From the NCBI RefSeq assembly GCF_003990915.1, contig NZ_BHXQ01000002.1, positions 62,001 to 126,000 on the forward strand: a DNA stretch of 64,000 nucleotides, given 5' to 3'. Position numbers and translations under genes: made by a program. Origin of the DNA: Chryseotalea sanaruensis (GTDB taxonomy: Bacteria; Bacteroidota; Bacteroidia; Cytophagales; Cyclobacteriaceae). This document shows, one piece after another, positions 1,745 through 12,396 of this stretch (its first letter is position 1; each line of letters starts with the position of its first letter). A model generated the notes under the pieces. It made no database searches. It was not told the origin of the DNA and worked only from the letters and a program-made list of their open reading frames with translations.

Positions 1745-4066
1745 ATGCTAAAACGCTTCCTTTTCATTGCTTGCCTTTTCATTGTTAGCCTTGCACAGGC
1801 ACAAACACTTGGTGAGCTAACTGTCGAAAAAATTATGCGCGATCCTAAATGGATTGGTACAGCCCCAAGCAATGTGCGTTGGTCGCTGGATAGTAAAACC
1901 ATTTATTTTAATTGGAATCCTGATAAAGCAAAGGCTGATTCTCTTTACAAAATAACGCTAACTAATAGAACACCTCAAAAAGTATCGAAACAAGAGCGTT
2001 TAAATTTACCCTCTGGTAACGGCACCTTCAATAAAGCCTATACTTCTTATCTGTTTGAAAAAAATGGGGATATCTTCATTTTTGATATCATCACTTCAAA
2101 AAGCAGGCAAGTTACCAATACAATAAATAGAGAAAGTAATCCTTCATTCTCAAGTGATGAGCGTAAAATCATTTTTACAGCAGATCAAAATTTATTTAGT
2201 TGGGAAATTGCAAATGGCAATCTGACACAATTAAGCGATTTCAAAAAAGGAAAGAAAAACTTGTCTACTCCTTTAAATGAACAAGAGAAATGGTTGAAGG
2301 AGGACCAGTTGGCAATCATTCAAATTTTAAAGGAGCGCAACGATGATCGCGAAGAAACTGCGAGCATCAGAAAAGCAGAACAAGTAAAAAGACCTAAAGA
2401 AATTTATCTGGACGATAAAAACGTAGATCAGGCAAGGCTTAGCCCTGATGGCAACTTTATTACTTACAGACTAACAAAAAATAGTAGTGCCAAAAATACT
2501 ATCGTACCCAATTATGTAACAACCTCTGGCTTTACTGAAAATATTCCGGCACGTACGAAAGTAGGTGCCGCCCAAAATACATCAGAACTTTTTGTATACG
2601 ATATCAAACGCGATACTGTACTGCAAGTAAAAGTAGATGAGCTCCCTGGCATTACTGAAAAACCTGTTTTTGTAAAGGACGACTCAAAAGATAAGAAGCC
2701 TGTAAACAGAGCAGTTTCTTTCTTCGGTCCTATCTGGTCTGATGATGGCAAGCAAGCAATATTAATGTTGCGTGCTGCAGATAATAAAGATCGTTGGATT
2801 GTTCTATTAGATGTGGCTACACAAAAACTAAACCTTGTTCATCGTTTACATGATGATGCATGGGTTGGAGGACCAGGCAGTTATAGTATGGGTTGGATCA
2901 ATAACGCAAGTTTATGGTTTATCTCTGAAGAAACCGGTTATTCTCATCTTTACAGTTACGACACAAATAACAAAACACAAAAGGCGCTTACCTCAGGTAA
3001 GTATGAAGTGCAACAAGTAGAGTTGTCCCGTTCTAAAAAACATTTTTATATTACGACAAATGAAGTACATCCTGGTGAAAAGCATTTTTACAAATTACCT
3101 GTAAGTGGTGGTAATACTGAAAAAATTACATCTGTTATTGGTGCGCATGAGGTGGAAATATCGCCTGATGAAAAAATGTTGGCTTACCGTTTTTCGTACA
3201 GCAATAAACCTTGGGAATTATTCTTTAGCGAAAACAAAGCAGGTGCTAAAACTCAACAGATTACGCAATCACTTACTACAGAATTCACTTCTTACAACTG
3301 GCGCGATCCAGTTGTCACCACTGTAAAGGCCCGTGATGGCGCTGACATTTACACACGCTTGTATAAGCCAACTAAACCAAATGGCGCTGCAGTAATTTTT
3401 GTACACGGTGCTGGTTATTTACAGAATGCACACAAATGGTGGAGCAGTTATTTCCGCGAATACATGTTCCACAATTTATTGGTTGATAAAGGTTATACTG
3501 TAATCGACATGGACTATCGAGCCAGTGCTGGTTATGGTCGCGATTGGCGGACTGGCATTTATCAATTTATGGGTGGTAAAGATTTAACAGATCATGTAGA
3601 TGGTGCGGAATGGTTGGTGAAAGAGCATGGTATAGATCCTAAACGAATTGGCATTTACGGTGGCTCTTATGGTGGATTTATTACCTTAATGGGTATGTTT
3701 ACTACACCTGATGCCTTTGCAGCTGGTGCGGCTTTACGCCCGGTTACTGATTGGGCACATTATAACCATGGTTACACTTCTAATATTTTAAACACACCTG
3801 TGCTAGATAGTCTTGCGTATGCAAAGAGTTCTCCTATTTATTATGCTGAGGGCTTAAAAGGATCATTGTTGATCTGTCACGGCATGATAGATGTGAATGT
3901 ACATTTTCAAGATGTAGTAAGATTATCGCAGCGCTTAATTGAATTGAAGAAGGAAAACTGGGAACTGGCTGTATATCCAGTAGAAGATCATGGCTTTGTT
4001 GAGCCTAGCAGCTGGACAGATGAGTACAAACGGATATTAAAATTATTTGAGGAGAAACTTAAGTAA
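1745..4066 (+). CDS. S9 family prolyl oligopeptidase-type serine peptidase (DPP-IV-like)
   Basis: 773 residues. A signal peptide (LFIACLFIVSLAQAQ) leads into a DPP-IV-type beta-propeller and a C-terminal alpha/beta hydrolase domain from about residue 530. The catalytic triad is visible: Ser641 in GGSYGG, Asp716 in HGMIDVNVHF and His749 in EDHGF. The protein should be exported and cleave after Pro or small residues at peptide N-termini. There is no T9SS C-terminal sorting domain, so it is probably periplasmic or lipid-associated rather than surface-secreted by T9SS. Its last ten codons, stop and 3' flank are repeated 188 bp downstream (see the repeat entries). It stands alone on its strand. 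Confidence 0.95.
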   Translation: MLKRFLFIACLFIVSLAQAQTLGELTVEKIMRDPKWIGTAPSNVRWSLDSKTIYFNWNPDKAKADSLYKITLTNRTPQKVSKQERLNLPSGNGTFNKAYTSYLFEKNGDIFIFDIITSKSRQVTNTINRESNPSFSSDERKIIFTADQNLFSWEIANGNLTQLSDFKKGKKNLSTPLNEQEKWLKEDQLAIIQILKERNDDREETASIRKAEQVKRPKEIYLDDKNVDQARLSPDGNFITYRLTKNSSAKNTIVPNYVTTSGFTENIPARTKVGAAQNTSELFVYDIKRDTVLQVKVDELPGITEKPVFVKDDSKDKKPVNRAVSFFGPIWSDDGKQAILMLRAADNKDRWIVLLDVATQKLNLVHRLHDDAWVGGPGSYSMGWINNASLWFISEETGYSHLYSYDTNNKTQKALTSGKYEVQQVELSRSKKHFYITTNEVHPGEKHFYKLPVSGGNTEKITSVIGAHEVEISPDEKMLAYRFSYSNKPWELFFSENKAGAKTQQITQSLTTEFTSYNWRDPVVTTVKARDGADIYTRLYKPTKPNGAAVIFVHGAGYLQNAHKWWSSYFREYMFHNLLVDKGYTVIDMDYRASAGYGRDWRTGIYQFMGGKDLTDHVDGAEWLVKEHGIDPKRIGIYGGSYGGFITLMGMFTTPDAFAAGAALRPVTDWAHYNHGYTSNILNTPVLDSLAYAKSSPIYYAEGLKGSLLICHGMIDVNVHFQDVVRLSQRLIELKKENWELAVYPVEDHGFVEPSSWTDEYKRILKLFEEKLK

Positions 4067-8228: not shown

Positions 8229-9455
8229 TCAGGACGCCAACAGGTCTTCCGGGACTGACTCAGCAATGGGACTAAAGGTGGCATTTGCAGCTAATAAAAC
8301 ACTTACGCCATCACGTTCACTTAACGCTTTAAACTGCGCTAATGTTAAGATGCCTTGCAGTAATTGTTTACCATTTGCGGCATACCCTGACTTAAAAGTC
8401 TCAAAATCCTTAATGCTTACCGAGTGTTGATCTTCAAAAGTTACAACCGCCTCTACCCGCAAATCATTTGAAAAGGAGAGTGCTTCATGTTGTGCCCGCT
8501 TTTTGTACTCATACGCATAACCATACGTTAGTGCCGAAACATCAGATAGTACGGCCGAACCTGTCGGGTAACTCCCTGCACCTTTGCCTACAAAGGTTTG
8601 TTTTTCAGCAAAAGCACCCTCTACCAAAACAGCATTGTATTCATTCCGAATAGAGGCCAAAGGATGGTGGGCTTCAATAAACTGGGGGGCAACAAAAGCA
8701 AAAACTTTATCACCTTGCTTAAATGCGCGCGCTACAAGTTTTATTGAAAGGTTATTTTCTTTAGCATACTTCAAATCCGTTGCCGAAATTTTATCGATAC
8801 CTATGTTAATGACATCTGCAGGTTTTACAAAAACACCAAAAGTGTGTGCGATGGCAATAACCAGTTTAAACTTAGCATCGTACCCTTCTACATCAAGTGC
8901 CGGATCAGTTTCAGCAAACCCCAATTCTTGTGCTTTTAACAAAGCATCGGCATAGGATTTCTTCTCTTCAAATACTTTTGTTAAGATGTAATTAGTTGAG
9001 CCGTTAAATATTCCTTCTATGGAGGTTAAGAGATCGTTATCATAATACTCTTCAAGGTTTCGGATAATAGGAATACTTCCACAAACTGATCCCTCATATA
9101 GAATTGATTTTCCATAACGTTGCTGTAATTCGTAAAACTCTTCAAGATTCTCAGCCAACATTCTTTTATTAGCTGTAACCACATGCTTACCTTTTTCTAT
9201 TGCTTCTTTTACAATAGCATAAGCCGCTTCATGATCGTTGATTAACTCTACGACTATATCTATAGAAGGATCATTGAGAATTTCAGTCTTATCAGTTGTA
9301 AATAATTCCTGAGGTAAAGTTCTGGTTTTACTTTTATCCTTGATGGCTATTCGCTTTATCTCAGCTTTTACTCCATGTGTTTGGCTGAGTACGTTATAGA
9401 GACCCTGCCCTACTACACCAAATCCAAATAGTCCAATTGTCAATTTCTTTTTCAT
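8229..9455 (-). CDS. hom: Homoserine dehydrogenase
   Basis: 408 residues. The Rossmann motif GFGVVGQG is at the N-terminus, the substrate domain has GSVCGSIPIIRNLEEYY and GIFNGSTNYILTKV, and the central ALDVEGYDAKFK matches the family. A C-terminal extension of about 70 residues (from VEAVVTFED) is in the place of an ACT-like regulatory domain but is not a clear one. The enzyme makes homoserine from aspartate semialdehyde with NAD(P)H. It is the third gene of metY-metX-hom, 21 bases after metX, so homoserine supply is tied to methionine synthesis and should fall under the upstream SAM riboswitch. Confidence 0.93.
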   Translation of the reverse strand: MKKKLTIGLFGFGVVGQGLYNVLSQTHGVKAEIKRIAIKDKSKTRTLPQELFTTDKTEILNDPSIDIVVELINDHEAAYAIVKEAIEKGKHVVTANKRMLAENLEEFYELQQRYGKSILYEGSVCGSIPIIRNLEEYYDNDLLTSIEGIFNGSTNYILTKVFEEKKSYADALLKAQELGFAETDPALDVEGYDAKFKLVIAIAHTFGVFVKPADVINIGIDKISATDLKYAKENNLSIKLVARAFKQGDKVFAFVAPQFIEAHHPLASIRNEYNAVLVEGAFAEKQTFVGKGAGSYPTGSAVLSDVSALTYGYAYEYKKRAQHEALSFSNDLRVEAVVTFEDQHSVSIKDFETFKSGYAANGKQLLQGILTLAQFKALSERDGVSVLLAANATFSPIAESVPEDLLAS

Positions 9456-9476: not shown

Positions 9477-10517
9477 TTATTTTTCATTTAATACATCAGT
9501 CTCCTGGTAAAATTTGTTGATGTACTTAATCAACTGATCATACTCAATCAGGAAACCATCATGCCCATAAAGTGATTGCATAATGGCAATATCTGCATGA
9601 GGAATTTTCTCTGCCAGGAACAGTTGTTCCGTTAAAGGAAACAGTACATCGCTGTCAATACCAATAACCAGTGTTTTTGCTTTAATCTTTTTCAACGCAT
9701 CCTCAGTACCTGATCTGTCGCGACCAACTTGCTGACTGTCCATCATTTTAGTTAATGTCCAGTAGGCAAAAGCATTGAATCGTTTTACGAGTTTTACTCC
9801 CTGATATTGCTGATATGTTGCAGCTCTGAAAGCATCGGTTATGTTGTTGTTGCCCTCTCCTTGTGTTTGGCCGTAGGTGTCGTATGTTCTGTAGGAAAGC
9901 ATGCCAATTGCTCTTGCCGCTTTTAGTCCTTCCGCTCCTGCCAAGTAGTCGTTGTTTTTCCAAGTAACATCTGCAGCAATAGCCATACGTTGTGCTTCAT
10001 TGAATGCAATGCCCCAAGGTGAGTGTGCAGCATTTGTTGCAATAGGAATAATGTGTTCAAAAACATCAGGTTCCTGAATAGCCCACTCTAAAACGTGTTG
10101 CCCTCCCAACGATCCTCCTATGAGCGTATGCACTGAATGAATACCTAGTGATCTGCGTAATAAATCAAAGGCCCTAACCACATCACGGTTAGTCAGCGTG
10201 GGGAAATCATGAAAGTAAATGCGCTCTGTTTCTGGATTAATGGAGAAAGCATTGGTTGAACCATAGCAACTACCCAGAATATTGGCGCAAACAATAAAGT
10301 ATTTATCAGGACTGTATACACCTTCTTTAGTAAATAATTTTCCCCACCAATCCGTAAAGTCTGAACTTCCTGTTAATGCATGACAAACCCAGATCACATT
10401 ATCACGTTCTGCATTAAGCTTACCTAAAGTGGTATATTGAAGTTGAAAGCCGGGCAAATAATCGCCCAACTCCAACTCAAAGGATTCATTGAAATAATAT
10501 GTGGATGTCTGTTTCAT
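9477..10517 (-). CDS. metX: Homoserine O-acetyltransferase
   Basis: 346 residues, an alpha/beta hydrolase-fold acyltransferase. The nucleophile elbow GGSLGGQ lies near residue 140; the acid is in GIDSDVLFPL and the base in YGHDGFLIEY, giving the Ser-Asp-His set of the MetX family. It converts homoserine to O-acetylhomoserine (or O-succinyl in some relatives) for direct sulfhydrylation. It sits between metY and hom on the same strand. The 83-base metY-metX spacer holds a weak hairpin (CGTTC, CTC, loop, GAG, GAACG). Confidence 0.93.
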   Translation of the reverse strand: MKQTSTYYFNESFELELGDYLPGFQLQYTTLGKLNAERDNVIWVCHALTGSSDFTDWWGKLFTKEGVYSPDKYFIVCANILGSCYGSTNAFSINPETERIYFHDFPTLTNRDVVRAFDLLRRSLGIHSVHTLIGGSLGGQHVLEWAIQEPDVFEHIIPIATNAAHSPWGIAFNEAQRMAIAADVTWKNNDYLAGAEGLKAARAIGMLSYRTYDTYGQTQGEGNNNITDAFRAATYQQYQGVKLVKRFNAFAYWTLTKMMDSQQVGRDRSGTEDALKKIKAKTLVIGIDSDVLFPLTEQLFLAEKIPHADIAIMQSLYGHDGFLIEYDQLIKYINKFYQETDVLNEK

Positions 10518-10600: not shown

Positions 10601-11986
<1,386 letters not shown>

Positions 11987-12025
11987 TCAAGCCTTGAATA
12001 TTGTGTTACGAAAAAAGATTAATCG

Positions 12026-12208
12026 TTAACAACAACAACCTGCCTGTGCGGCAGATATACGCATACAACATGTGCATGACGTATTTGCCTCCGGCTGCAT
12101 GGCAACGGGAAGACAACAACAAATAATGGATTGAATAAAGTCGCGAATAGAAGTCTCAAGGCTTAGATTACCCTGCTTTGTGATGTTAATGAAGTTAATT
12201 GTTTTCAT
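12026..12208 (-). CDS. Cysteine-codon-rich leader frame of the met operon (60 aa)
   Basis: 60 codons from the ATG at 12208, three bases after the riboswitch P1 helix; the longer frame to 12262 runs through the riboswitch and is not a credible start. The N-terminal half is KTINFINITKQGNLSLETSI. The rest carries nine Cys in three clusters: CCCLP near residue 31, CTCC near residue 45, and GCCC as the last codons before the stop. It has no signal peptide. I do not recognise the family. Position and composition suggest either a peptide whose translation reports cysteine supply, as in known cysteine-attenuation leaders of Actinobacteria, or a small metal-binding protein. It is 102 bases upstream of metY. 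Confidence 0.6.
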   Translation of the reverse strand: MKTINFINITKQGNLSLETSIRDFIQSIICCCLPVAMQPEANTSCTCCMRISAAQAGCCC

Positions 12209-12211
12209 TTT

Positions 12212-12335
12212 CAATCGTTTTATAGTTCTCCTCAACACCTTGTTGGGAGCAGGATTTAGCACCTTTCCACATTTTGTGGCGGTTGCTAGTGCTTCTTTGA
12301 GCCTGTTCTCTCAGCACTTCTTTATAAATCGATTG
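12212..12335 (-). ncRNA. SAM-I (S-box) riboswitch
   Basis: Read on the minus strand. P1 pairs CAATCG-A-TTTATA with TATAAA-A-CGATTG. P2 is GTGCT with AGCAC, holding an inner GAG/CTC stem and a loop with CAGG that can pair with CCTG downstream as the pseudoknot. The invariant GCAACC follows. P3 is CCAC with GTGG, then the diagnostic AAGGTGCTAAATCC core. P4 pairs CTCC-CAACA with TGTTG-A-GGAG around AGG. This matches the SAM-I consensus stem by stem. No terminator follows; the 3' strand of P1 ends three bases before the leader ATG, so control of translation initiation is the simplest reading. Confidence 0.93.
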
Positions 12336-12364
12336 GGCGAATGGCCTTCTCGACTATGATGACA

Positions 12365-12396
12365 CAAACGTATACTGGTTTAGTAGAGTTTCCAAA
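12365..12396 (-). promoter_or_regulatory. Promoter of the met operon
   Basis: On the minus strand TTTG (12393-12396), exactly 20 bases, then TACGTTTG (12365-12372): a full match to the Bacteroidota TTTG-N20-TAnnTTTG promoter. The expected start of transcription is about 25 bases before the riboswitch P1 helix. Confidence 0.8.

Follow-up and report, generated by a model that had tools for sequence, protein, structure and literature searches.

A SAM-I riboswitch joined to a cysteine-codon leader before metY-metX-hom of Chryseotalea sanaruensis, a likely two-stage regulator

What does a short cysteine-rich reading frame do between a SAM-I riboswitch and an operon that makes homocysteine? The question is raised by a region of Chryseotalea sanaruensis DNA lying in the window (i.e. 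the whole stretch of 64,000 nucleotides that was analysed), for which the original prediction, made from the letters alone, had suggested two sensors in series. Read on the minus strand from 12396 to 8229, the region holds a promoter, a SAM-I aptamer, the leader ORF, about 100 nt of structured RNA, metY, metX and hom, in that order. Its features are as follows.

12365..12396, minus strand: promoter TTTG-N20-TACGTTTG, Bacteroidota -33/-7 type, enriched before related aptamers
12217..12330, minus strand: SAM-I riboswitch aptamer (RF00162), 74.7 bits, P1 extended to 12212/12335
12026..12208, minus strand: leader ORF, 60 aa, MKTINFINITKQGNLSLETSIRDFIQSIICCCLPVAMQPEANTSCTCCMRISAAQAGCCC, ATG 3 nt past the extended P1
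12113..12121, minus strand: Cys cluster 1, CCC, codons 30-32
12065..12076, minus strand: Cys cluster 2, C.CC, codons 45, 47 and 48, followed by Met 49
12029..12037, minus strand: Cys cluster 3, CCC, codons 58-60, abutting the TAA
11999..12037, minus strand: predicted helix I (MFE), terminal Cys codons and stop (12037-12023) paired with CGTAACACAA (12011-11999)
11968..11995, minus strand: predicted helix II (MFE), AAGGC-t-TGACA-agtcc-TGTCA-tc-GCTTT, with compensatory changes in relatives
10601..11923, minus strand: metY, O-acetylhomoserine sulfhydrylase (TIGR01326, 665 bits)
9477..10517, minus strand: metX, homoserine O-acetyltransferase
8229..9455, minus strand: hom, homoserine dehydrogenase

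The complete SAM-I fold (12212-12335) and the good promoter that had been claimed were both recovered. The RF00162 covariance model was matched over its full length (1-108), at a score well above the gathering score of 44.4, and an RNA start is expected near 12359 from the promoter, a kind that also stands before 22 of 69 related aptamers (0.3 in shuffles). In the predicted fold, P1 is longer than in the Rfam model, with 12 pairs and one A.A mismatch (CAATCG-A-TTTATA / TATAAA-A-CGATTG), and it stops at 12212, 3 nt before the leader ATG (12208-12206). The frame itself, closed by a TAA at 12028-12026, reads as had been described, i.e. nine Cys codons in three clusters, the last three directly before the stop; it contains only two internal Met codons (37 and 49). 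Likewise, the genes at 11923-8229 are the homocysteine-making operon that it was said to precede. Within the leader frame (12038-12056, minus strand) there is a hairpin resembling a terminator, ATCTGCCGCACAGGCAGGT, after which comes the TGTTGTTGTT belonging to the last Cys codons. Between leader and metY, the window showed no other Rfam element above noise; helix II is overlapped by an almost perfect E. coli-type sigma-70 site (TTGACA-16-TATACT, 11961-11990, minus strand), probably accidental in this phylum.

A run of Cys codons could arise by chance or composition, as a TGY-rich stretch in a non-coding leader, all the more as TGYTGYTGYTRA is common in the genome (57 matches). Among the 30 of these 57 matches that were inspected, only the one in the window closes a Cys-rich frame that is leader-sized and opens with an ATG, and no other poly-Cys leader was found. 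We then turn to the relatives, from which 80 metY loci were fetched; a covariance model from 28 SAM-I aptamers placed a riboswitch before metY in 75 of the 80, all of them in Bacteroidota, giving 76 loci with the window included (counts from related genomes, many of them MAGs). Taking as a leader a short frame with an ATG close after P1 and three or more Cys among its last 20 residues, we found one in 58 of the 76, against 0.9 expected with the downstream sequence shuffled. The leader is thus kept in most relatives that keep the riboswitch, and the pair, which the original prediction had called unusual, is what normally stands before metY in much of the group.

These leaders carry the marks of translated frames. 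Their ATG lies mostly at +7 to +11 past the Rfam end of P1, and the longest TGY run shares its frame in 86 of 87 loci. As both TGT (398) and TGC (231) are used, it is the codon rather than a DNA word that is kept. Among 103 leaders, 57 have AAA as their second codon, which gives the A-rich context expected for putative translated starts. Lengths range from 22 to 63 aa and common ends are CMCCCC, ICMCCCC, CCCCACCC and CCCCCC, with no conserved Cys spacing and no arrest motif. A phylum-wide pattern search yielded mostly background and served only as a lead.

Losses of the Cys cluster with the riboswitch before metY retained were seen in an Algoriphagus/Belliella group (L029, L030, L032, L036, L038, L043, L049, L057 and L060) and in Spirosoma (L056, L059 and L064), and in these loci an ATG past P1 is often still present.

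The two modules can also come apart. At the L069 locus (3299-4000), the SAM-I aptamer comes with an intrinsic terminator of its own, and a poly-Cys ORF stands apart from it, closer to metY; at L078 only the terminator is present; in L058, L072 and L082 a poly-Cys ORF precedes metY, the riboswitch not being found at E<=0.01. Apart from L078, these loci speak for two independent sensors, i.e. a riboswitch with its own expression platform and a separate Cys leader whose adjacency is historical. We judge this quite unlikely, since most loci have just 7-11 nt between P1 and ATG, too little to hold a platform, and the extension of P1 runs in the direction of the ATG.

Whether the peptide or its codons matter was assessed in four independent close pairs of leaders, compared codon by codon. 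All 25 Cys residues were identical, while 40 of the 148 other residues differed and 108 were the same (Fisher p = 0.0014). Non-Cys codons evolved near neutrality (pN 0.14, pS 0.20), compared with pN 0.003-0.058 and pS 0.22-0.79 for metY of the same pairs. This is the pattern that had been proposed as a sign of attenuation, namely Cys codons conserved and the rest of the peptide not, and the protein-like conservation throughout that would have spoken against it is not seen. As the non-Cys part is near neutral and metY constrained, a functional peptide is unlikely. Such a product might be a small Cys-rich peptide (metal, redox or persulfide binding) or a thiol-sensing nascent arrest peptide, and the Cys-rich C-terminus would suit either; the window peptide matched no family in Pfam or NCBIfam, so that no assignment points the other way. 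Still, neither the whole-peptide purifying selection nor the conserved Cys spacing of a metal-binding peptide was found in the leaders compared, and the variable length, the lack of an arrest motif and the co-enrichment of Met all count against this reading, to which we give very little credence.

This co-enrichment is strong: over the final 15 aa, 115 of the 925 non-Cys residues are Met, compared with 30 of 2408 elsewhere (odds ratio 11, p = 8e-40, a nominal value as the sequences are related). It was seen among the Cys codons in leader ORFs of 99 loci (e.g. L019, L107, L154 and L173) and in frame only, ATG standing at about 1% in the other two frames over the last 15 aa; 84 of 133 internal Met adjoin a Cys. 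It thus looks as if the leaders count sulfur amino acids in general rather than only Cys. In one further locus (L164), the leader past the aptamer is without Cys and ends in MRMSMFS, with Met codons alone. Taken from sequence comparison, the evidence strongly supports a ribosome-mediated cysteine (perhaps cysteine and methionine) leader.

To see where such leaders occur, SAM-I riboswitches of 59 related genomes were divided into two types, and a class-wide sample was added for the breakdown by gene. In type A, P1 is GATTTATA/TATAAATT and is extended outward, with an ATG about 9 nt later; its column -1 is paired in 60 of 69 cases by varied pairs (TA 19, TG 16, GC 11, CG 11, also AT). In type B, P1 is CTTATC/GATAAG without outward extension, usually directly before metH. 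Among the first 59 relatives, a Cys leader follows 47 of 69 type A riboswitches (0.7 expected) and none of 43 type B. The split is repeated within the window genome, whose second SAM-I riboswitch (L002, G000:C1:266455-266571) has a type B P1 and no leader, 50 nt upstream of a gene for the metH N-terminal domain. With the class-wide sample, leaders were counted by first recognised gene at 35 of 44 for metY, 7 of 28 for metZ-like genes and 10 of 18 for others; none was found before metH (0/84), metX (0/7) or hom (0/1). Riboswitch and leader also precede sulfite/nitrite-reductase-type genes (L144 and L154), CysH then CysD (L146), an NhaC-family antiporter gene (L129), an ATP-grasp gene (L148) and TonB-dependent receptor genes (L168 and L185). 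Unnamed genes preceded by a SAM-I riboswitch and a poly-Cys leader were noted as well (among them L170 and L171). By comparison, the leader shows a restriction to putative sulfide-making and sulfide-using genes. The absence before metH, together with the recurrence, the shared frame and the variation of codons, refutes chance or composition, whose probability we regard as negligible. This absence, the Met codons and the leaders of sulfate-reduction genes had not been noted in the original prediction.

How could such a leader act on the genes behind it? In the window, the region from 24 nt before to 90 nt past the stop folds at z -3.1 relative to shuffles; the mean z of the equivalent region is -1.6 in 25 close relatives and -1.2 in 74 others. 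In 16 Chryseolinea-like loci a GCAACA that hardly varies lies opposite the Cys codons, with 96.9% paired, and there is no covariation at this helix because both sides are fixed. The structure of this group has 14 cells changed on both sides compared with 5.1 in shuffles, all in helix II, whose pairing is kept in the window genus through TGACA/TGTCA, TGACG/CGTCA and TAACC/GGTTA. The helix II loop GTGAC is strictly conserved in the Chryseolinea-like group (e.g. L011, L016 and L173), which pairing does not explain.

Several more general structures were considered and rejected. A universal helix of Cys codons with an anti-Cys segment is clear in the window-close group only (mean duplex z -0.47 across families), and a Cys-arm helix of the size of helix I is also common in shuffles, i.e. 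not clearly beyond chance; no mutually exclusive alternative partner for the anti-Cys segment was found. As to a classical intrinsic terminator of the trp/his type, terminator-like sites follow 43 of 104 leaders and 33% of shuffles, hardly an enrichment, and the scan of these 104 leaders gave no antiterminator competing with one. An anti-P1 interaction, in which the 3' arm of P1 would pair with the body of the leader (GATTGAA/TTCAATC in the window), gave no signal over 99 leaders (mean z 0.2). The sequence past helix II is pyrimidine-rich and G-poor. With no clear enrichment of intrinsic terminators and no general helix I, the output step may be either Rho-dependent termination or translational control.

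We consider it likely, from these sequences, that metY-metX-hom are controlled in cis by a two-stage regulator in the 5' region of their mRNA, a SAM-I riboswitch followed by a Cys leader. As only 3 nt separate P1 from the leader start in the window, SAM probably gates leader translation via P1, a step that fits the extension of P1 towards the ATG. With SAM bound, P1 would be held and ribosomes kept from the leader start, so that helices I and II could form and the genes would be off. With SAM low, ribosomes would enter the leader. If Cys is plentiful, they would run through to the stop codon and come off there, letting helices I and II form, and expression would be off or low; if Cys-tRNA (perhaps Met-tRNA) is short, they would stall on a Cys cluster, helix I would stay open and the genes would be on. 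The off state may be Rho-dependent termination or blocked translation. The genes would thus be on only under low SAM combined with a shortage of sulfur amino acids, and strict series logic would leave a Met-starved, Cys-rich cell off unless Met codons stall ribosomes too.

The sign of the second stage could also be the opposite, full translation of the leader barring Rho and a stall at Cys codons turning metY off, which would spare sulfide for cysteine synthesis. The lack of enrichment of intrinsic terminators and the pyrimidine-rich, G-poor sequence past helix II, which suits Rho, are in keeping with this, and the Mtb ppe2 riboswitch leader needs uORF translation for downstream expression (PMC11260477). 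Against it, a cell starved of Cys needs sulfite reductase and CysH-CysD, whose genes have the same leaders in front of them, and the Cys codons are themselves in helix I, so a stalled ribosome would open it. We regard the opposite sign as unlikely. The leaders before sulfite reductase and CysH-CysD genes support Cys shortage as the presumed ON signal, the sensible sign for such genes.

Returning to the two-stage regulator switched on by Cys shortage, comparison shows its parts, namely the riboswitch, the signature of a translated frame, apparent selection on Cys (and Met) codons, covariation of helix II and the restriction to certain genes. We tentatively extend it to a widespread Bacteroidota RNA AND-gate, in which SAM via P1 would set ribosome entry and charging of tRNA-Cys (with tRNA-Met) would set sulfide-gene expression; this we hold to be a serious possibility that falls just short of being probable. 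If true, a metabolite riboswitch would gate an amino-acid attenuator, with the signal passed from one sensor to the other by the ribosome. The locus would then be a natural example of riboswitch control exerted on a uORF rather than on a gene. The pair appears standing rather than accidental, as it is found before most sampled metY operons and also before sulfate-reduction genes and is missing before metH in these same genomes, and it predicts how these bacteria may balance methionine against cysteine synthesis. It would also place two textbook RNA sensors in one leader, in a phylum where post-transcriptional regulation has received little study.

Each half has known counterparts. As in other SAM-I (S-box, RF00162) riboswitches, the window has a full aptamer before methionine-pathway genes; unlike the usual ones, it has no terminator after P1, and P1 reaches the start codon of the leader ORF, not that of a gene. 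Cys leaders without obvious terminators have been described before cys operons of Actinobacteria (PMC1262725), and mycobacterial ones were tested by Canestrari et al. 2020, as cited in PMC9094748. Those leaders are, as here, short ORFs ending in Cys codons without a conserved intrinsic terminator, for which Rho has been proposed; they belong to another phylum, are leaderless in mycobacteria, precede cys operons and have no riboswitch in series, whereas in the Bacteroidota leaders studied here Met codons are co-enriched. The uORFC-8-2 motif, a Cys uORF before cysS in Rhodobacterales (PMC8632094), is similar in that two tandem Cys codons pair in a stem and stalling is predicted to cause read-through, but it ends in an intrinsic terminator, targets Cys-tRNA synthetase and has no riboswitch. 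An interplay of B12 riboswitch and uORF is known in the metE and ppe2 leaders of M. tuberculosis (PMC11260477), where the riboswitch occludes translation initiation in a uORF-bearing leader and uORF translation affects the downstream gene; there, ligand and phylum differ and the uORFs are not described as amino-acid counters. Within Bacteroidota, passages of a study of 5' leaders in Flavobacterium psychrophilum (PMC9723704) give clues for leader-peptide attenuation before amino-acid operons, and no Cys leader or SAM-I combination is named in those main-text passages. A search of open-access main texts gave no report of a SAM-I riboswitch with a Cys leader attached. Riboswitch and Cys leader are thus of known kinds, and it is their combination in series, its breadth and the Met codons that seem new as far as searched.
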